Source of the DNA: Gemmataceae bacterium
Lineage (GTDB): Bacteria; Planctomycetota; Planctomycetia; Gemmatales; Gemmataceae
Assembly (NCBI GenBank): GCA_901538445.1
Contig: LR594586.1
Span: 434,001 to 498,000, forward strand
Length of the DNA: 64,000 nucleotides
Reading direction: 5' to 3'
Shown: positions 7,867 through 35,071 of the stretch, piece by piece
Position numbering within the stretch: position 1 is the stretch's first letter
How the letters are laid out: each line of letters starts with the position of its first letter
The notes under the pieces: model-generated
Database searches by the model: none
Seen by the model: the letters and a program-made list of their open reading frames with translations, nothing else
Told to the model about the DNA's origin: nothing
Made by a program: the position numbers and the translations under genes

Positions 7867-7942
<76 letters not shown>

Positions 7943-8921: not shown

Positions 8922-9714
8922 CCCCCCTGCCCTACCGCACAGCCTCGGCGATCGCCGCCACGGCGAGCTTGCCGAGCAGCTCGGCGACCTTCCAGACCCA
9001 ATCTGAACGTTTTCCCGAACCCCGCCTGAACCCCGTTTTTGGCCCCGTCCCGCCCCGAACGCACCCCGATCCGACTCGTCCCTCAGCTCGGCCCCTCCGA
9101 CGCAGCCTGCGCAACGCCAGGGCCTGTTTTTCCCGACAGGCACTCCGCGGGGCCGGACGTGGTTCCGCGGCAGCGGTTCACGGGCGACGCGAGCGGGGCC
9201 GCCAACGCGGGTGACCGGCCGCGAACGGAGGTGCCGGGACGGGTCGTGAGGGGAGCCGGACCGCGCGCTTTCGCCTTCGCTTTCGCCTTTGGAAGATTCC
9301 ATCTAAGCGTAGGCGAAGGCGAAGGCGGTATTCGCGGTTGAATGACCGCCGAGGTGGGGGAAGCCGCAGCGGCGGGCGGTTATACCGGACCGACCGCAGC
9401 GGTGAACGTGACCGCAGGTCGATCCGACCGCCGCGGTGGGGGTTATTTTCGGGCTCACCGCGGTGGGGGTTACCGCTGCGGTGAAATCGACCGCTAGCGG
9501 TAAACCCGACCGCTAGCGGTCGGGGGGTACTGGTGGGGGGGCGTCCGGCCGGTCGGCCGCGGTGGTTGAGGGATTGCCGCTTGACGGGGCCGGTCCCGGG
9601 GGTACACTTCACCCCGCTGGACCGGGTTCGTTGGATACCGAGCAGTTGGGTCCCAACCGCCGCCAGGCGGGCCAACGGCAAAAGGGCGAACGCGGCAGCG
9701 CAGAGTAATCCCCA
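8922..9714. other. Non-coding phage region with inverted repeat and palindrome cluster
   Basis: Almost 800 bp without a credible gene. It holds a 17-bp inverted repeat with one mismatch (9272-9288 with 9311-9327) and a dense group of palindromes (see 9363-9520). It sits directly before the rightward early operon that starts at 9715. Position and structure suit a control region or a replication origin; neither is shown by the sequence alone. Confidence 0.5.
9363..9520. promoter_or_regulatory. Seven ACCGC-n-GCGGT palindromes (operator or iteron cluster)
   Basis: Palindromes of form (A)CCGC-(0 to 2 nt)-GCGG(T) occur at 9363-9373, 9393-9403, 9427-9437, 9457-9464, 9472-9482, 9490-9501 and 9509-9520; the first has G/C instead of A/T at its outer ends. 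The last two are identical (ACCGCTAGCGGT). Starts are 30, 34, 30, 15, 18 and 19 bp apart. They lie about 200 bp before the early operon. A multi-dimer binding site for a regulator or replication initiator is the simplest reading. Confidence 0.65.
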
Positions 9715-10755
9715 ATGCCAACGCTCAGTTGGTGCGAAAGCACCACGGCAGCGTCGCCACACCCCGTGCGGGTGGAGCGATTCTGCGGCAAGTCGCGTCA
9801 CCGCGTCCACCTCCTCGGCGAGGTGCGACCCCTCAAAGTTCACTTTCGGTTGGGCGAGAACACCGTCCCGTGTCTGGAGACCGAGCGGCCGTGCCCGTTC
9901 TGCGCCGACCCGATGTGGAAGCCCCGGCACGAGCACTTCGGCCCCGCGCTGCTGATGGACCCCAAAGAGGGCCAGTGGAAGCAAATCGTCGCGGTGTTCA
10001 CCCCGGGCGGGTGGAACCAGCTCTACAAGGCCCCGCCCGGCCCGCACCGCGGCCGGTTGCTGGACATCTGGCGGCACGGGCAGGGCAGCGCCGGCGGGGG
10101 ACTCCTGAAGCTCAAGGAGGTGTCGCGGATCGACCCGAACTACCCGGCGTTCGACGTGCTGCCGCACCTCATCCGCTGCTGGTTCCCGTTCGCCAAGGAT
10201 CTGCCCCCCGTTGACGCGCTCCCGCCGGTCCCGGTGGTCGCCTACGAGGCCCCGGCGCGGCAACCGGAGCCCGAGCCCGTGAAGGTGAGTGCCGAGGTCG
10301 CCAAGCAGTTCCACGAGTACGCGGCCCGGTTCGCGACGCCGGCGGTTCAGCAGGACGGTACGACCGTCGCGCCGGCTACCACGACGGCCCCGCCCGATCT
10401 GCCCCCGCCACCGCCGCACGTCACCTCGGTCCCGGCCGCTGCCGCGGGTCCGAAGCAAACCCCGCCGCTGCCGCCGCCACCCGCCACGTCCGTCCCGCTG
10501 AACGACGTGGCCGTTGCCCCGCTCGGTGAGCGTGGTCTGGGGACTGGTGATGCCGCCCTGGGCGGCGCGCTTACTCGGTTGATCCCGGGGTTCAACGCGG
10601 AGTACGGACCGAAGGAACTGGTCCGCGGCCCGATCACGGAACAGGACGAGGCCGACGCGCTGTCGAAGCGCAGCGCGCGGATGGTGTGCGACGACCAGCG
10701 GGGCAAGAGCGCGTTCCTGAACGGCCACGCCAAGGCGAAAGGCGGTGCCCGGTGA
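9715..10755 (+). CDS. Phage early protein with CxxC motif and proline-rich tail, unknown function
   Basis: A 346-residue protein heading a six-gene operon. The first about 170 residues look folded and include a cysteine pair (RPCPFCAD) next to 'LMDPKEGQWKQIVAVFTPGGW', a beta-rich pattern that could be a zinc-stabilised OB-like or single-strand-binding domain; this is only a resemblance. Residues about 180-270 are rich in Pro, Ala and Glu and probably disordered. The last 70 residues are more ordered again. It lies downstream of the palindrome cluster and overlaps the next gene by 4 bp, so a replication or recombination role is plausible but unproven. Confidence 0.65.
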   Translation: MPTLSWCESTTAASPHPVRVERFCGKSRHRVHLLGEVRPLKVHFRLGENTVPCLETERPCPFCADPMWKPRHEHFGPALLMDPKEGQWKQIVAVFTPGGWNQLYKAPPGPHRGRLLDIWRHGQGSAGGGLLKLKEVSRIDPNYPAFDVLPHLIRCWFPFAKDLPPVDALPPVPVVAYEAPARQPEPEPVKVSAEVAKQFHEYAARFATPAVQQDGTTVAPATTTAPPDLPPPPPHVTSVPAAAAGPKQTPPLPPPPATSVPLNDVAVAPLGERGLGTGDAALGGALTRLIPGFNAEYGPKELVRGPITEQDEADALSKRSARMVCDDQRGKSAFLNGHAKAKGGAR

Positions 10756-11189
10756 ACACCCGCACCATCGTCGTGACCCCGTACCAGGCGACCGTTGTTC
10801 CCCGCGCGACCGAAGCGGACCCCAAGGCGTCGGCGCGCGTCCGGTACCGGTGGCGGGCCGAGCTGGTCGAGGGCGACGGCACCACGTCGCTGAAGGTCGA
10901 GGGCTACCTCGCACCGGACGCCGCGATCGGCGTGCTGATCCGCGAGGCCATGTTCGCGTGCGAGACGCACGAGCAGCTCCTCGACCTGGTCGCCGGCCTG
11001 TTCGGCGACACCGCGCACCGCCCGGCCGAGGTCGTCATGGCTCGCGCCGTCCGGTTCGCGAACGGGAACCCGAAGCGGGAGCACCCCGGCGTGAAGGTGG
11101 TCATCCACCAGCCGGAGCCGATCCCGGTCCCGCCCGTAAAGCGGCTCCCCGCCGTGGCGCGGCAGAAGCGGAAGGGGGGTGCCCTTTGA
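10752..11189 (+). CDS. Phage early protein, unknown function
   Basis: 145 residues from a GTG that overlaps the stop of the preceding gene (GTGA), a sign of translational coupling. The sequence is alpha-beta (TIVVTPYQATVVPR ... RYRWRAELVEGDG), with a helical middle (REAMFACETHEQLLDLVAGLFG) and a basic end (RQKRKGG). No family is recognised. An upstream in-frame start at 10686 is rejected because the 4-nt overlap pattern is repeated through the whole operon. Confidence 0.6.
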   Translation: MNTRTIVVTPYQATVVPRATEADPKASARVRYRWRAELVEGDGTTSLKVEGYLAPDAAIGVLIREAMFACETHEQLLDLVAGLFGDTAHRPAEVVMARAVRFANGNPKREHPGVKVVIHQPEPIPVPPVKRLPAVARQKRKGGAL

Positions 11190-11494
11190 TCCCCTCGACC
11201 GAACCCGTGATTGTGCCACTCACCGCCGCGGTACTTCGTCTATTGCACTCGTGCGCCGTGCCGTGCTGCGGAAAGCAGATCCGCACGACGCTGCTGATGT
11301 GCCCGCACCACTGGTTCAAGGTGCCCAAGGCGCTCCGCGACCACGTCCTCGACGTGTGGGGGTGTTACCTCGACGGCACGGCCGAGGTCGCCGAGCTGCG
11401 CGCGGCACAAGAGAAGGCGATCGCCGCCATCCCCGGTCAGGGGGACACGATCCGCCGGCCCGCGGACGAGACTCTGAAGGGGGGTGCGCTTTGA
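11186..11494 (+). CDS. Small phage protein with cysteine cluster
   Basis: 102 residues from a TTG at 11186 that overlaps the preceding stop (TTGA); a GTG at 11207 is an alternative. The N-terminal half holds CAVPCCGKQI and, 15 residues on, LMCPHHW, giving three or four cysteines plus a His pair that could bind zinc. The remainder is helical (VAELRAAQEKAIAAI). Similar small Cys-rich proteins are common in phage early operons, but no exact family is recognised. Confidence 0.55.
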   Translation: MIPSTEPVIVPLTAAVLRLLHSCAVPCCGKQIRTTLLMCPHHWFKVPKALRDHVLDVWGCYLDGTAEVAELRAAQEKAIAAIPGQGDTIRRPADETLKGGAL

Positions 11495-11952
11495 AACCCC
11501 CAGAGACGAAGTACCGCGGCGAGCGGACCGCCGACGGCGTGCGCGTCACAGTTGACGAGCACCCGCTCGCGCCGCGTGAGCTGCGCTGTTGGGTCCGCTG
11601 CAACGGCGGGTTCGATTGGGGCTACTCCGGGGCGGGCTCCGGAGCGCTGGCCCGTGCCCTGGTGCAGGACGCGACCGGGGACACGGTGCTCGCGTCACTC
11701 TGCTACCCGTGGGTCAGGGACGCGACCGTCGCCACGTGGGGGGACCGCTGGCAGATCACCGCCGGCGAGGTCCTCGCGTGGGTGGAGCAGTGGTGGCGCG
11801 AGGGTGCCCGGCCCGGGACCGAGGCTATGCCAGAAAGGGCATACGTCCCGACCGTCGCCGAGGCCCTCAGCAACCCGGCCGGGTTCGTCGCGGGCATGGA
11901 CGCCAGCGAGTTCCCATTCGTGGGCTCGAAGCCGGAAGGGGGTGCGCCGTGA
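11491..11952 (+). CDS. DUF6166-like phage protein
   Basis: 153 residues from a TTG overlapping the previous stop. The region 'YRGERTADGVRVTVDEHPL' followed by 'FDWGYSGAGSGALARALV' and a final 'ITAGEVLAWVEQWW' follows the pattern I know for DUF6166, where a variable head precedes a WGYGGSGP-type motif. The function of that family is unknown. It is embedded in the overlapping early operon. The last about 40 residues (VAEALSNPAGFVAGMD) form an extra helical tail. Confidence 0.6.
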   Translation: MKPPETKYRGERTADGVRVTVDEHPLAPRELRCWVRCNGGFDWGYSGAGSGALARALVQDATGDTVLASLCYPWVRDATVATWGDRWQITAGEVLAWVEQWWREGARPGTEAMPERAYVPTVAEALSNPAGFVAGMDASEFPFVGSKPEGGAP

Positions 11953-12191
11953 GCAAGCCCCCGACCGGCGCGACGGTCCCGCTCGCGGACTACCTCGCAC
12001 TCGCCACGCTCGGCGCGGCGGTGCGGAAGGCGCAGCGGGCGTACTTCACGGCCCGGAAGAACAACCCGCACTCGTCGGCCACCGTCGAGTACCAGACCGC
12101 ACGCGCCCTGGAGAAGCGGTTCGATTCGGCGGTCGAGGACGCGCTCGCCCGCGACCGCCAGGTCCTGCCCGGGATGGAGGACGTCGCATGA
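11949..12191 (+). CDS. Small helical phage protein, unknown function
   Basis: 80 residues from a GTG that overlaps the previous stop (GTGA). The sequence is almost all helix (LADYLALATLGAAVRKAQRAYF ... ALEKRFDSAVEDALARD) and could form a helical hairpin. No family is recognised. It overlaps the next gene by 4 bp (ATGA), keeping the operon pattern. Confidence 0.55.
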   Translation: MSKPPTGATVPLADYLALATLGAAVRKAQRAYFTARKNNPHSSATVEYQTARALEKRFDSAVEDALARDRQVLPGMEDVA

Positions 12192-12418
12192 CGACCTCCG
12201 GACGCCGCGAGATCCTCGGCCTGCTGACCGAGGCGACCGCGCCGGCCTCGACGGACCGGATCGCCCAGTGCCTCGCCCACGGCCTGCTCCGTGTCGAGAG
12301 GACGCTGCGCCGCCTGGAGAAGCGGCGGCTCGTGCTGCGCGTGCCCACGAGCCAGGGCCAGGACCAGTGGGCGCTGACGCCGACCGGCCTGGTCCTCGCC
12401 GTGAAGCTCATGCGGTGA
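12188..12418 (+). CDS. Small winged-helix DNA-binding protein
   Basis: 76 residues from an ATG at 12188. The layout 'REILGLLTEATAPASTDRIAQCLAHGLLRVERTLRRLEKRRLVLRV' followed by 'WALTPTGLVLAVKLMR' is that of a compact winged helix: three helices, then a beta wing and a terminal helix (a PhiE125/ArsR-like small HTH). It ends the early operon and converges with the RHH gene, the two stop codons being 1 bp apart. It probably regulates phage transcription. Confidence 0.65.
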   Translation: MTTSGRREILGLLTEATAPASTDRIAQCLAHGLLRVERTLRRLEKRRLVLRVPTSQGQDQWALTPTGLVLAVKLMR

Positions 12419-12419
12419 C

Positions 12420-12650
12420 TCAGCTCCGGCCCTTCCGCCCCCGGCGCTTCGGGGGCGGGGGGTCGGGCTCCGCGGGCGGGCGGCCGAGCTTGGGCGGGGT
12501 GTACTCGACCCCGACCGTCTCGGCGCACAGGCTCGTGATCCAGGCCGTGAGCGTCAGCCCCGCCGCGGCCGCGGCCGCCCTGCTCCCGGCCAACACGTCG
12601 TCCGGCATCTCGAACGCGAGTTGCGAGTAGCCCTCTTTGTGCCTCGGCAT
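12420..12650 (-). CDS. Ribbon-helix-helix (CopG/Arc-like) regulator
   Basis: 76 residues. 'YSQLAFEMPDDVLAGSRAAAAAAGLTLTAWITSLCAETV' matches the RHH layout: a short strand, a helix, a turn and a second helix; the tail is basic and proline-rich (PPPPKRRGRKGRS). RHH proteins bind as dimers to short palindromes. Its own upstream DNA holds five TCCTAG/CTAGGA sites, shared with the divergent gene at 12835, so autorepression and control of the divergent operon are inferred. It is the best candidate for a lysogeny-type switch protein in this prophage. Confidence 0.7.
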   Translation of the reverse strand: MPRHKEGYSQLAFEMPDDVLAGSRAAAAAAGLTLTAWITSLCAETVGVEYTPPKLGRPPAEPDPPPPKRRGRKGRS

Positions 12651-13749: not shown

Positions 13750-14637
13750 ATGCCCCGTGAACTCCCGGTCGCGTGCCTCAGCCTGCACCCCGACGCCGGC
13801 CTGGTCCCCGAGATGCCCGCCGACCAGTACGAGCGGTTCCTCGCCGACGTGAAGGCCCGCGGCATCCTCAAGCCCCTGGAGCTGGTCCCCGGCACCCGGA
13901 CCGTGATCGAGGGCCGGCACCGGTTGCGGGCCGCGACCGACGCCGGCCTCGCGTCCGTCCCGGTCGTGGACGCGGACCTCGGCGGGGACTCGCCGGTGGT
14001 CTACATGATCCGCTCGGCGCTGCTCCGCCGGCAGATGACGAGCGCGCAGACGGCGGCCCTCGCGGTCGAGATCGAGGAGCGTCTCGCGGTCGAGGCGAAG
14101 GAGCGCCAGAGGGCCGGCGCGCGGAAGGGAGCTGCGGTCCGCAACGGGACCGATGCGAAGGCCCCATCGTCGAGCCCGGCCCCGGCCCCGTCTCTCAAGT
14201 CACGCGACCAGGCCGCGGCGATCGCCGGCACCAAGCCGCGAGCCGTGAGTGACGCGAAGGCGATCAAGAAGGCCGCGCCGGAAGTGTTCGAGCAGATGAA
14301 GGCCGGCAAGATCACCATGCCCGAGGCGAAGCGGATGGTGTCGCCGGCGAAGGCCGCACCCCCGGCGAAGGTCGAGACGGTCAAGATCGCCGACGGCATG
14401 GGGCAGGCCATGCGAGCGTTCCAGAAGGCGCTCAAGATGCACGGGGACGCCACGCCCGAGTGGCTGGAGTTCGTCGAGCTGGTCCGCGCGATGCGGCGCA
14501 CGCAGAAGAACGCGGAGTACGGTGTGCCCCACTCGAAGACGAAGCGGGCCGAGGCCGAGCGCCCCGTGGACGACTTCCTGAGCGAGTTTGACCAGATCGA
14601 AAGAACGCCGCAGCTCGACTTCACGAGGAAGACTTGA
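13750..14637 (+). CDS. ParB/Srx-fold domain protein
   Basis: 295 residues. The first about 95 residues match a ParB N-terminal domain: 'ADQYERFLADVKARGILKPLELVPG' and the box 'VIEGRHRLRAATDAG'. A helical DNA-binding part follows (RRQMTSAQTAALAVEIEERLA), then a low-complexity linker and a C-terminal helical region. Phage proteins of this class act as CTP-dependent regulators, partition factors or nucleases; which one applies cannot be told here. No ParA-like partner is present in the prophage, so a plasmid-like partition role is less likely. Confidence 0.75.
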   Translation: MPRELPVACLSLHPDAGLVPEMPADQYERFLADVKARGILKPLELVPGTRTVIEGRHRLRAATDAGLASVPVVDADLGGDSPVVYMIRSALLRRQMTSAQTAALAVEIEERLAVEAKERQRAGARKGAAVRNGTDAKAPSSSPAPAPSLKSRDQAAAIAGTKPRAVSDAKAIKKAAPEVFEQMKAGKITMPEAKRMVSPAKAAPPAKVETVKIADGMGQAMRAFQKALKMHGDATPEWLEFVELVRAMRRTQKNAEYGVPHSKTKRAEAERPVDDFLSEFDQIERTPQLDFTRKT

Positions 14638-14671: not shown

Positions 14672-14715
14672 AAGGCACCCCGCGGGCGTTGTCGCCGGCG
14701 GGGTGCCTTGTTGTT
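14672..14715 (+). terminator. Intrinsic terminator after the ParB-like gene
   Basis: A 12-bp perfect stem (14672-14683 with 14698-14709), a 14-nt loop and a T-rich tail (TTGTTGTTTGG). A TATAAA patch (about 14652-14659) lies just before it, so some transcripts could start here towards 14730. Confidence 0.7.
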
Positions 14716-14729
14716 TGGTAGGGGGCCGT

Positions 14730-15023
14730 ATGGTCGCGCGAAAGGACTCGTTCGGTGGCGTGCCCATAGCCCAGGTCCGGGCGGCCCTGGCGGTCACCCG
14801 GTTGCACCCCGACGCCGGCGGCGTCGTCTGGCCGGTGGCCGTGTGGGACCGGCTCTGGGTCCGGCTCACCCCCACACAGCAGCACGTCGTCTACCTGCGG
14901 TTCGTCGTCGGCCTCACCTCGACCGCCGCGGCCGAGCAGCTCGGCCTGAGCCGGGGGTCCGTGGACGGGGCCGTAGCGCGTGCCCTGGAGCGGATCCGCG
15001 ACGTGGTGCCCGCGTCCAACTGA
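14730..15023 (+). CDS. Sigma-region-4-like HTH protein
   Basis: 97 residues from the ATG at 14730. The C-terminal half 'LTPTQQHVVYLRFVVGLTSTAAAEQLGLSRGSVDGAVARALERIRDVV' is a textbook sigma70 region 4 (the helix-turn-helix that reads -35 boxes), but no region 2 precedes it. The N-terminal about 45 residues are not recognised. It is the last rightward gene and could be a late-gene activator or region-4 partner of the gp55-like protein encoded at 17449-17841. It is convergent with the leftward late genes, the two stop codons being 1 bp apart. Confidence 0.7.
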   Translation: MVARKDSFGGVPIAQVRAALAVTRLHPDAGGVVWPVAVWDRLWVRLTPTQQHVVYLRFVVGLTSTAAAEQLGLSRGSVDGAVARALERIRDVVPASN

Positions 15024-17448: not shown

Positions 17449-17841
17449 TCACTCTCGCTCGTCCCGCTCGCGCCGGGGCGGCAGCTCCCGGCCCGCCTCG
17501 ACCAGCTCGGCCGCGTAGGTCTCGAACCGGCGGCGGTCGCCGGTCGCCTTCTCCCGGAGCTTCTGCCCGAACCGGATGGCGCAGGTCGTGAAGTAGTTGA
17601 AGACGTGCTTCTGCGCGTCGGCCTTTTCGAGGGGACGTTGCATGAGGTGCAACGTCACCTCCTGCACGAAGTCGTCCTTGTCGCTGGTGAACCGGTACCG
17701 GTCCCACACGCCGCCGGCGATCGCCATGAGCGCGCGGGCCAACTCGGGCGAGACGGTGCCGGTGGCCTGGTGGTCGAGGACGAGCGCGCGGAGCGCGGCG
17801 ACGTCGATGTACGACGTCGCCCGGGTGGGGCGATCGGGCAC
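17449..17841 (-). CDS. T4 gp55-like late sigma factor
   Basis: 130 residues from a GTG at 17841. The order of blocks follows T4 gp55 as I remember it: 'YIDVAALRALVLDHQ' (gp55: YVNNKELLQAIIDWK), then 'LARALMAIAGGVWDRYRFTSDKDDFVQE' (gp55: IGLAIMLIAEGLSKRFNF), then 'VFNYFTTCAIRFGQKLREKATGDRR' (gp55: [22 protein letters not shown]). This is a sigma region 2 without regions 3 and 4. gp55 directs RNA polymerase to late promoters that have only a -10 element (TATAAATA). The gene carries one of the late boxes itself (17880), so positive feedback is possible. Confidence 0.65.
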   Translation of the reverse strand: MPDRPTRATSYIDVAALRALVLDHQATGTVSPELARALMAIAGGVWDRYRFTSDKDDFVQEVTLHLMQRPLEKADAQKHVFNYFTTCAIRFGQKLREKATGDRRRFETYAAELVEAGRELPPRRERDERE

Positions 17842-18389: not shown

Positions 18390-21300
18390 GTGGGCACGAT
18401 CTCCGCGCTTGAGAACCAGTGGAAGGCGCAGCCGCCCGAGGCCGGGGAGACCGAGCCGCCGGCCCCGTTCTGCACCGCGAACCCGGTGGGGCCGCTGTTG
18501 GCCACGGTCGCGGTGCCCAGGTTGGTGTTCGCGTAGTCGCTGAACGTGTTGGGCGATCCGGCGTAGTTGTAGGTGCCCAGCACGGCCGGCGTGGCGCGCT
18601 TGGCGACCGCGTACCGCACGCTCCCGATCACCGCCCCGTTCGCGATGCTCGACGGGGTCGGGAACGCGGCCATGCCGACCGCCGTGGACGCGGTCCCCGG
18701 GGCCACGCCCGGCGTGTAGCTCGACTCGCAGTACCGCTGGCACAGTTCGTCGTCGGCCGGGTGCGGTGCCCACGTCGGCACCTGGGAACCGCGGACGAGT
18801 TGGGCCTGGCCGAGGTAGATGCTTGCGCCGTTCGCCAGCGACTCAACGTATGCGATCACCCACAGCCCGACGCACGAACTCGACGGGGTTCCGGTCGCGG
18901 TCACCGGCGTGGCCGTGCTGGTGTTCAGTGCCGCGGAGCCGGTCGCCACGCTCGCGTAACTCGTGGCCTGGAACGTGGGCACGCCCGAGGACCAGGAGGC
19001 GACCGGCTTGGTCGGCGCGTCGGCGCTGCCGGTCCACTCGCGGACCGCGACCCTGAGCGTCGGCGTGCCGGTCGAGGCGATCGCCCGGAACCCGGCGGCG
19101 ATTGCGGTTGCCCGGAGCGACGCGGCGGCCAGCCCGTTCGGCCCGTTGGCCTCGATGAACTGCCCCAGTGCGAACGACTTGGCGGACCCCGAGTTGTTCT
19201 TCACCTGGAGGTAGCTCGGGCCGAGTTCGGCGAACGACGCGGGCGGGGACGGGTCCCCCTGCGTCCAGTTGCGGAACTGGATGTCGGTGGAGCCGTTGTC
19301 CTGCAAGTACCAGTTGGTCGGCCCGTGGACCCCGGTGGAGGCGTAGGTGGAGAGGGTGGTGCGGGCCTGCCGCGGGAGCCGGCGGAAGTCGCCGTTCACC
19401 AGCAGGTTGAGCTTGTCCACGGTCACCGCGTTGGGGCCGGTGACCGCGTCGAAAGCCTTGATGACCTTGTTGGTCACCCGGAACGGCTGCATGTTGTTGT
19501 GAGCGGCACCGCCGCCCGTCGCATCAACATTGGGCTGCTGCACATTTCTATTGCCGCCGCCCGCCCACGTTGCCGTACCCGTGCCGGTGGTCGGGTTAAA
19601 ACCGATCGCATTAGTGGAGTGGCTGTGCGATGGCATTTCCCCAGTGGTCAGTTGGTGGGTCTCGGCCCCACCGCTCGCGGCAAGCGTCCTTGCCGTGAGT
19701 CCTGAGCCGGTGCCGCTGCCGATCGCCGTGCGGCCCCGCAGGTCGGGCAAGTTAAACGTGGTCGAGCCGTCCCCGCTGCCCCAAGCCGTCCCGATGACCG
19801 CGTACAGCGCCGAGTAGGTCGAGCGCGACACGGCCGAGCCATCGCACTCCAGATACCCGGCCGGGGGAGTCGCGGAGCCGAAGTCCAGGATGCTCCCGAC
19901 AGGCACGGTCCCCGCCGCCGCCCAGCTCACCGAGGTGCCGTCGGTGGTCAGGAACTCGCCCGCGTGGCCCGTTTGGGTCGGGACCAGCGCGTTGATCGCG
20001 TCGGCCGCCGTGGTCTCGCCGGTGCCGCCGTTGGCGACCGGGAGCGTGCCGGTGACGTCCGCGGCCGGGATCGTGGTGGTCGCGGAGACGCTTGAGCCGT
20101 TGCCCTTCAGGTACCCGGTGAGGTCCGTGGCGGTTGCCGCGGTGACCTCGTTCGGACCGGGAGCACCGTCGGCCCCGTCCGCGCCGTCAGCACCGGCCGG
20201 GCCTGTCGGCCCAGTCGCGCCCGTCGGCCCGGTCGGGCCGGGGTCGCCCTGCGGCCCCGCAGGGCCGGTGGCACCCGTGGCACCCGCCGGCCCAGTCGCG
20301 CCCGTCGGCCCGGTCGGGCCGGGGTCGCCCTGCGGCCCCGCAGGGCCGGTGGCACCCGTGGCACCCGCCGGCCCAGTCGCGCCCGTCGGCCCGGTCGGGC
20401 CGGGGTCGCCCTGCGGCCCCGCAGGGCCGGTGGCACCCGCGGGGCCGGTCGCGCCCGTCGCCCCGCCGGGGATGGTGAAGTCGAGAACGGCCGCCGTGCT
20501 GGTGCCGACGTTCGTCACGGTCGCCGAGCTGCCGGCCGCCCCGGTCGTGACGGTGCCGATGCTCACCGTGGCGGCCCCGTCCGCGCCGGCGGGTCCGGTG
20601 GGTCCGGCGGGTCCCACGCCAGGGAGCAGGTAGGTCGCGTAGGTGAGTTCGTGCCCGAGCGACGTGCTGCGGTAGTAGATGTTCGCGTTGCCGGACCCCA
20701 GGCTACCGTGGAGCTGTAACACCAAGGTGGCCGCAGAGGGGGCCTCGTACAGCACGCTGAACGTGACCGAGTCCTGGCGGTAGTACGTCTGCGGGGTGGT
20801 CGGGCCGACGTACTGGTCCGCGACCGCGCCGAGGGTCGTGGCCCCGTCCGTGTTGTTGCCGACCGCCTGCGCGTTGGTCTGGTCGTAGAGCCGCCACCGC
20901 CAGAACGGTTGGTCCGGCACGGTGTCGTACACCGCGTAGTACATCGTGACGACGACGTTGAGCAGGTACGTCCCGGCCTGCGGGAGGTCCATCACGAGTT
21001 GGGTGTCCTGCCACCCGGACCCCGCGTAGAGGTCTTCGTAGTCCACCGCGGGCGGCTCGGAGCGACCGCACACCGGCGTCCCGCCCCCGCCGGAGGTGCC
21101 TCCGCCGGCGACCGTGCGGAACCGGGCGAGGCCGTCCTCGGTGTCGCCGGTGCGGGTGCAGAGGTAGCGAGCGTCCTCGACCAGCTCGGCCGAGCCCGCC
21201 GCGGCGACCAGGACCCCGGCGTCGAGGTCCTCGAACTCGCCGGCGACGTCGAGCGACACCACGCCCGGGTACCACCCGCCGTCGGCCGGGCCGGTGACCC

Positions 21301-33678: not shown

Positions 33679-33939
33679 GTGCCAGTCCCGAAGAAGAAGC
33701 AGACGGTGCGCGGGGCGAAGCGGATGAGGGAACAGGGCTACAAGCAAGTGGCGCTCTGGCTCGGGCCGGTCGAGGCGGGCGTGATCGCGGCCGCCGCCAA
33801 ACGGCTGGGTATGCCGGTGGCGACGTGGATCCGGGAACAAGCCTTCGCCGCGGCACAGGCGGCCGAGGCGGAACGGAGGAAGCTAACGAAAGTGGCCGCG
33901 GCGAAGGCCGAGGCCGAAAGACGAAAGGGACAGCTCTAA
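33679..33939 (+). CDS. Small basic protein, possible RHH-like DNA-binding protein
   Basis: 86 residues from a GTG at 33679 with GGAGG 5 nt upstream; this avoids starting within the 28-bp inverted repeat. 'YKQVALWLGPVEAGVIAAAAKRLGMPVATWIREQAF' resembles an RHH core (strand, helix, helix), followed by a highly charged helix (AAQAAEAERRKLTKVAAAKAEAERRKG). Its stop overlaps the integrase stop on the other strand. It may control integrase or the nearby inverted repeat. Confidence 0.6.
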   Translation: MPVPKKKQTVRGAKRMREQGYKQVALWLGPVEAGVIAAAAKRLGMPVATWIREQAFAAAQAAEAERRKLTKVAAAKAEAERRKGQL

Positions 33940-34898
33940 GCTTGCCTCCCGCCGTCCGGTCGCGATCGCGGCCGGTCCGCCACGCGGTCGATCGCCGCGA
34001 CCAGGTCGTCGCCGGCGAGGTGCTGATAGCGGTTCGTGGTCGTCGTGTTCGAGTGCCCCATGATCTCGGCCAACGTCTTGTCCTTGACCCCGCGCCGGGT
34101 CGCGTTGGTCGCACCGGTGTGGCGCATGGTGTAGCACACGACGCGCTCCACGCCATCTGGGTCCAGCCCTGCCCTTTCCCGCGCTCCTCGCATCTGGCAC
34201 CGAAGCGCGTTGTAGGTCCATTGCTTCCCGTCCCGATCCAACCAGACTGGATCGTTCGGCCCGGGGCACCCCCGGCGCTCCCAGATGTTGCGGAGCATCC
34301 TTAGCGCCGGCTTGTCGAGCGGGATCTGCCGCACCTTCACACCGTCACGCCGGCGCTTCTTTCCCTTGAATTTCACGAGGGTTATGAGCCGACGTTCCCA
34401 CTGGATCTGACCCCAGAGCAGCCCGCGGATCTCGCCCGGCCGCGCGATGCTGCGGGCGAGTACGAAGAGGAACCGGCGGAGCAGTCGGCTGGACGCGAGG
34501 TAAAGCCGTACCATCTCTGTCCGGGTCAGGACGCGCTGCCGCTCGCCGCACGGAGGGGGCTTGAGCTTCTTGAACGGGTCCTTCTGGAGCAGCCCGACGT
34601 CGTCGTCGCACGCCCAACGGTACACGGCCCGGAGGACTCGAACGAATGCGTTCGAGAACTCGACCGACACCAGGTGGGCGGCCCGCAGCTCGGCCGCGGG
34701 GAAGTCCCCGACCGCGGCGTCGAGCTTCGCGAGCTGGCTCTTGTACCACGCGAGCGTAGTGGGTTCGGTCTCGCCCAGCTTGACGCGGACTAGTAGGGCG
34801 GATTCGAAGCTGCGGGAGAGGTCGCGTACTCGGAACATTCCCGGATTGAAACGCCCGCCGCCCGCGTTGTCATCAGACGCACGTTGAGGTATCGTCAT
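33936..34898 (-). CDS. Tyrosine recombinase / phage integrase
   Basis: 320 residues. Core-binding domain about 20-100, catalytic domain 110-295 with Arg153 (ARPGEIRGL), Lys near 176 (KFKGKKRR), Arg259 (YTMRHTG), His282 (MGHSN) and nucleophile Tyr291 (TNRYQHL). The usual HxxR is YxxR here, a tolerated variant. It stands 120 bp from attR, the normal position for the enzyme that joined this phage to tRNA-Pro. Its upstream DNA has one box of the late type (34976). Confidence 0.93.
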   Translation of the reverse strand: MTIPQRASDDNAGGGRFNPGMFRVRDLSRSFESALLVRVKLGETEPTTLAWYKSQLAKLDAAVGDFPAAELRAAHLVSVEFSNAFVRVLRAVYRWACDDDVGLLQKDPFKKLKPPPCGERQRVLTRTEMVRLYLASSRLLRRFLFVLARSIARPGEIRGLLWGQIQWERRLITLVKFKGKKRRRDGVKVRQIPLDKPALRMLRNIWERRGCPGPNDPVWLDRDGKQWTYNALRCQMRGARERAGLDPDGVERVVCYTMRHTGATNATRRGVKDKTLAEIMGHSNTTTTNRYQHLAGDDLVAAIDRVADRPRSRPDGGRQA

Positions 34899-35018: not shown

Positions 35019-35071
35019 GCGCGCTTGCTTGGGGTGCAAGAGGTCGTGGGTTCAAATCCCGCCGGCCCGAC
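35019..35071 (+). repeat. attR, 53-bp copy of the tRNA-Pro 3' part
   Basis: Identical to 7890-7942, but without the tRNA 5' part, so it is not a second tRNA gene. The host DNA resumes after it. Confidence 0.93.

Follow-up and report, generated by a model that had tools for sequence, protein, structure and literature searches.

The replication origin of phage lambda is made up of repeats with an internal dyad, and in the OR and OL operators of the same phage several short palindromic sites stand close to an early promoter; clustered palindromes are also common in centromeres. For lambda ori (ITN1-4, O/P initiation), PMC3349717 describes tandem 18-bp repeats with an A+T-rich neighbour and places the iterons inside gene O. 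The origin of the PLE satellite of Vibrio cholerae has a RepA_N initiator and three iterons of ~30 bp, and its iterons are described as semi-palindromic and as differing between related elements (PMC8263062, PMC7145576); when one more base separates the inverted sub-repeats, as in a variant of the PLE1 ori, replication still takes place (PMC8263062).

Here we describe an array of short palindromes in a 64,000-nt stretch of a Gemmataceae genome (hereafter the window), which we read, with moderate confidence, as a cis-acting, iteron-type replication origin of a Gemmataceae temperate phage. It resembles lambda ori in its tandem repeats (period 16-23 among the phages compared below), which here have an inverted repeat beside them, and differs from it in being intergenic and upstream of a gene for an SSB-like protein, in that no O-like protein was recognised, and in that the A+T-rich neighbour is the loop of the inverted repeat, unevenly marked among the members. 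With the PLE origin it shares semi-palindromic iterons that differ between related elements, and centres of variable length recall the extra base tolerated there; unlike in PLE, no RepA_N initiator was recognised, and the repeats are shorter and more numerous. With lambda-type OR/OL it has in common that a number of short palindromic sites lie close to an early promoter, but the array does not overlap that promoter and no CI-like repressor was found.

The array lies in a tailed prophage of 27.2 kb that is integrated in tRNA-Pro(GGG) of a 7.86-Mb genome (4 contigs), between attL and the first early gene. The prophage ends are marked by two direct copies of a 53-bp sequence from the 3' part of the tRNA-Pro(GGG) gene (7867-7942), one at 7890-7942 (attL, + strand) and one at 35019-35071 (attR, + strand), and the prophage encodes a tyrosine integrase (33936-34898, - strand), large and small terminase, portal, major head protein, tape measure and tail fibre. 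An earlier note, made from the sequence of the window, had pointed to seven palindromes in a gene-free region upstream of 9715, the last two of them identical, and we find the same: if arms of 5 bp or longer and a centre of 0-2 nt are required, the palindromes within 9363-9524 number exactly seven, and the array region contains no gene of note by GC3. These are GCCGCAGCGGC at 9363-9373, in which G..C replaces A..T at the ends, ACCGCAGCGGT at 9393-9403, ACCGCCGCGGT at 9427-9437, CACCGCGGTG at 9456-9465, ACCGCTGCGGT at 9472-9482, and the 12-mer ACCGCTAGCGGT twice, at 9490-9501 and with its core at 9509-9520, where the palindrome extends to 9505-9524. The label ACCGC-n-GCGGT given to them in that note is matched exactly (as ACCGC-N1/2-GCGGT) by five of the seven; it is slightly loose because the palindrome at 9456 has overlapping arms, and the one at 9363 differs at its ends. 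Upstream of the clear palindromes, degenerate arms run on to 9334 (9334-9373, including the first palindrome), and the clean part of the array forms a tandem repeat of 2.6 copies with a period of 19. The repeat unit can alternatively be read as four outward-facing 17-bp units, GCGGT-N7-ACCGC (9399-9415, 9460-9476, 9478-9494 and 9497-9513); the prophage has four such units, all within the array, and the genome 69.

Single palindromes of this kind are common across the host (164 sites of ACCGCN{0,2}GCGGT in the genome, ~1 per 48 kb), but their clustering is not. Five of these sites fall within 128 bp here, which by our own arithmetic under a Poisson null has a chance of ~1e-15, and ACCGCTAGCGGT has just two copies in the 7.86-Mb genome, both in the array. 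Between the tRNA and 9715 (1,772 bp) six were observed, a number reached by none of 200 dinucleotide shuffles (mean 2.16, max 4), and with at most three alike palindromes per 200-bp stretch elsewhere, the array is unique in the prophage. ACCGCGGT by itself is ordinary in the window (4 found, 3.29 expected), and the single occurrences of ACCGC-N-GCGGT at 11222 and 27138 of the window are chance-like. GC skew gave no clear origin signal.

Just upstream of the array stands an inverted repeat (9272-9327) whose arms enclose a loop of 22 nt. The host genome has a single copy of the arm sequence, and with 47% GC, a value that two others share, the repeat ranks with the 40-bp windows of lowest GC in the left-end region. 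A sigma70-like promoter, TTGACG-N16-TACACT (9581-9608, + strand; 1 found in 9200-9760 against 0.0 expected in shuffles), follows 61 bp beyond the array end. After it, all on the + strand, come the first early gene (9715-10755), a second gene with a homologue in genome G010 and no assigned function (10746-11189), a DUF6166 gene (11491-11952), which also lies downstream of the 9715-family gene in genomes G010, G051 and G052, a small gene, and a gene for a small winged-helix-like protein with weak Pfam and PHROG matches only (12188-12418), a candidate DNA binder. A second candidate DNA binder, a small protein that looks RHH-like by eye (PHROG 23295, E 0.0086; no Pfam match), is encoded on the - strand at 12420-12650. 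Further downstream, the gene at 13750-14637 (+ strand) encodes a ParB-N-like domain fused to a C-terminal domain, and small early genes of G051 and G052 carry this C-terminal domain without the ParB part.

The product of 9715 has an N-terminal domain of ~160 aa and a Pro-rich tail; searches of Pfam, NCBIfam and PDB sequences gave no match to it, and among the PHROGs it matched no SSB family. An AlphaFold model of its N-terminal 167 residues, aligned with those of G010, G051 and G052, is of moderate confidence (pLDDT 68.8, pTM 0.65). The PDB chains that align best with it are two gp32 cores, that of RB69 (2a1k_B, Z 7.6, rmsd 4.0, 137 aligned) and that of T4 (1gpc, Z 7.5, rmsd 4.1), with 137-139 residues aligned across both and Z values below the 8 advised for the tool, followed by other OB-fold ssDNA-binding proteins. 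Foldseek returned no PDB match for the model at E <= 0.001 and, at the same cut-off, 14 viral predicted structures, most of them unnamed and including "DNA binding protein" and "D11" entries. Residues H43, C53, C60 and C63 are invariant in all four aligned sequences, and their His-Cys-Cys-Cys order is that of the zinc ligands of T4 gp32, given as His64, Cys77, Cys87 and Cys90 in PMC3012046. Because the fold match (Z under 8, no proof alone) and the putative zinc ligands coincide, we regard the product as probably a gp32-like, zinc-type ssDNA-binding protein, even if no HMM relationship to T4 or RB69 gp32 was found and it ends in the Pro-rich tail and GGAR where gp32 has an acidic C-terminus. 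The operon region of G052 also encodes Rad52 (E 1.6e-10). With an SSB-like first gene besides, the operon that the array faces is probably one for DNA replication or recombination.

When 95 genomes of the same family were searched with 9715, G010 alone matched besides the window; direct searches gave no match in phage records, genome contigs or viral contigs, and a 392-genome sample of the phylum gave weak matches only. A four-sequence profile of the N-terminus matched seven of the 95 genomes at E <= 0.01 (the window's genome, G010, G051, G052, G075, G050, and G072 with a broken copy, E 0.004, internal stops). The G010 prophage sits in the same tRNA-Pro and has most structural genes in common with that of the window. 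TerL searches led to G051 (Limnoglobus roseus PX52, NZ_CP042425.1, family Gemmataceae), where the hit positions are identical to an IMG/VR record, and to the IMG/VR contig L041 (TerL 66% identical), and a DUF6166 search led to G052. A tRNA-Pro(GGG) lies beside the region in G051, G052 and G075, and a tRNA-Ala in G050.

Four relatives have the layout of the window, namely three prophages in the same tRNA, that of Limnoglobus roseus included, and one IMG/VR contig across attP. In all five phages the order is tRNA-Pro att, long-loop inverted repeat, tandem repeats, promoter and 9715-family gene, the relatives' copies being only distantly related to 9715. On L041 it runs from the integrase through partial tRNA-Pro sequence, inverted repeat and array to the start of a 9715-like ORF, and because of this order, and since no tRNA gene was found there, the contig may be read as an excised or packaged attP form; the ORF start resembles the 9715 family by eye only, was missed by the profile search and aligned poorly by automatic means. 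The G010 prophage has a tRNA-Arg(CCG) between attL and array (L002:2802-2876), which for this position is apparently phage-carried.

The arrays of the five phages are tandem repeats with internal dyads, in 3-11 copies and with a period of 16-23, that of G010 being weak. As an architecture the array is conserved; its letters are common to the window and only one of the four relatives, L041, whose array of 8.8 copies with a period of 20 carries the window's own word ACCGCTAGCGG. In G051, CCCGAGC is present 11 times between 8709 and 8866 if both strands are counted, including three CCGAGCGCTCGG, and the tandem repeat has 9.8 copies with period 17; G052 has three palindromes GCGCCC-N4/6-GGGCGC (period 23, 3.3 copies). 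The short and imperfect array of G010 consists of a 13-mer found twice within GACYGCGTATCGCAGTC and an imperfect third copy; its palindromes are no better than in shuffles (200/200) and its tandem-repeat score of 57 resembles coding background. Within each phage sequence searched, exact repeat units are confined to the array, bar single chance-like matches such as one relaxed match in G010 and scattered single CGCTCGGG in G051. That the rigid 17-bp outward unit is the true site of every phage was rejected: the window matches it with four exact copies and G010 only roughly, and it fails in L041, where neither gap is fixed and the two always add up to 20, as well as in G051 and G052, where the fixed part differs.

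Among the six family genomes examined, arrays are present in four (window, G010, G051 and G052). G075 (L124:5850-6900) has no array and one 24-bp palindrome, with the 9715-family gene directly after tRNA-Pro, and G050 (L125 reverse, 1920-2480), inspected by eye only, has no array and one 17-bp palindrome, with a 9715-family gene that looks truncated directly after tRNA-Ala. The inverted repeat is found just upstream of the array in all five phages that have one; when 40-bp windows are ranked by GC content, its loop comes lowest in G010 and L041, shares its rank with others in the window, takes fourth place in G051 and falls outside the four lowest in G052. From the array end to the best -35-like site we count 61 bp in the window, 55 in G010, 70 in L041 and 169 in G052, with sequences like the 9581 promoter in these three relatives also, and ~260-330 bp in G051, where the promoter assignment is uncertain. 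At gaps of 55 to ~330 bp, the array therefore does not cover the promoter.

This distance bears on the strongest alternative, that the array is the main operator of an immunity region, whose repeats a phage repressor (for example the 12420-12650 or 12188-12418 protein) would coat in the lysogen, silencing the early promoter; different repeat words at one att site would then mean different immunity groups. The array is indeed always upstream of an early promoter, some repressor is required in a lysogen while the prophage showed no second cluster of repeats, and the window and G010 have, by eye, dissimilar RHH-like small ORFs at the same place along with dissimilar repeats. However, the repeats stop short of the -35, by 55-70 bp in three phages and by at least 169 bp in two, and leave the promoter uncovered, the exact units are absent from other promoters, by GC3 no gene diverges from the array, and neither G051 nor G052 showed the RHH-like ORF. 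We hold an operator to be possible but rather doubtful, and favour an origin over it because of the tandem repeats with dyads, the inverted repeat, the SSB-like first gene and the lack of promoter overlap. The earlier note had left the choice between an origin and the main operator of the phage; the comparison favours the former, and the latter loses ground with an array clear of the early promoter.

An origin is further supported by the confinement of exact units to the array, by Rad52 in G052, by variable centres as tolerated in PLE1, and by a parallel from viral contigs. A scan of these for places where the window's word stands twice in close proximity gave five contigs in three groups, including L041's own record. 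On L133, which is AT-rich and unrelated, two ACCGCTAGCGGT and a threefold 17-nt repeat lie at 1714-1796 inside an O-like replication-initiation gene, an arrangement like that of the lambda iterons in gene O; the ORF matches Phage_rep_O (E 4.9e-7) and O-like initiator PHROGs (best E 1.7e-20). On L130, L131 and L132 (~11010, 9526 and 6767), one unrelated group, three AAACCGCTAGCGG-like repeats stand upstream of terminase genes and not of an initiator. An O-gene origin in one of two independent outside groups is suggestive of the same role here, as a post hoc observation and no proof.

If the array is an origin, the palindromes would act as iterons, several copies of which would be bound by a phage-coded initiator, and the looped inverted repeat upstream would be the strand-opening or entry region; replication would be of the theta type. 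Machinery for the opened DNA would come from the operon, transcribed from the neighbouring promoter, with the gp32-like protein first, and iteron and initiator would be expected to co-diverge between phages.

Several results weaken this reading: no initiator was recognised, nor an HTH-type candidate shared by all four early regions, G075 and G050 have no array, that of G010 is weak, the A+T-rich neighbour is uneven, the fold match of the 9715 product is middling, the motif of L130-L132 is upstream of terminase, and GC skew gave no clear signal. As the earlier note had stated for known initiator genes, none of the early proteins scanned matched a known initiator family above the cut-off, the winged-helix-like 12188-12418 protein having a weak match to a replication-initiation PHROG (E 0.19). 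Neither an HTH-type nor any other candidate DNA binder could be recognised throughout the four early regions; the window and G051 have a wHTH-like one, and the window and G010 an RHH-like one. DUF6166 was dropped as a lead for the array binder, being present in 24 of the 95 genomes and widespread without arrays. Among 30 DUF6166 loci and 20 regions scanned (several overlapping), of which G053, G011 and the other DUF6166 regions were covered by repeat scan only, arrays were found only in G051 and G052, and a DUF6166 model (pLDDT 81.7) showed no informative fold.

The two remaining alternatives rank below the operator. Several dimers of an activator or sigma-accessory protein bound at about -60 to -250 might switch the early promoter on, and in the window, G010 and L041 the array does stand upstream of a conserved promoter; we think this improbable, as the distance varies from 55 to ~330 bp and the copy number is high for an activator site. 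Least probable of all, and very unlikely in our view, is a parS-like partition site at which the ParB-N-like protein (PHROG 4715, E 5.8e-11) would bind the palindromes and stabilise an extrachromosomal or replicating form, since the phage integrates, the centre length varies, G010 has no ParB match (tblastn, E <= 1e-4), and G051 and G052 match the C-terminal domain only, in genes that by eye have no ParB domain.

Returning to the origin, the tRNA-Pro phages might conceivably keep a fixed replicator architecture in which the iteron word is replaced wholesale, together with an initiator of a family not yet described, and iteron identity might form a replication-incompatibility barrier among phages that compete for one att site; we consider this broader proposal unlikely but worth stating. 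The initiator would then possibly be the array-adjacent gp32-like protein or the small winged-helix protein. Because the architecture stays while the letters change, these phages offer natural swaps for finding an initiator that homology does not reveal, and the set of arrays allows a test of whether iteron identity decides which phages share a cell. Temperate phage replication in planctomycetes is little known, and in the literature searched we found no report on a Gemmata prophage origin; the present comparison nominates a short DNA block as the origin in five related phages.

Other repeats were considered as possible arrays and set aside. Strong palindromes at 20225-20430 of the window are collagen-like repeats within the tail-fibre gene, in which tandem 27-bp repeats (20152-20455) encode Gly-X-Y. 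Those in G021, G006 and a second prophage of the window's own genome resemble coding Ser-rich tail repeats or unrelated hairpins. This other prophage is probably marked by a second terminase, which is of the same type and more distant (G000:C1:57494-59203), and no iteron-like array was found in the 36 kb scanned there. Finally, the gene at 14703-15023 (+ strand) of the window encodes a sigma-70 region-4-only protein, with a Pfam match to the region-4 half only, and the one at 17449-17841 (- strand) a protein whose DDFVQEV stretch resembles sigma region 2 by eye. Both are kept in G010 (54% and 70%, respectively), and their products are possibly the two parts of a split phage sigma factor.
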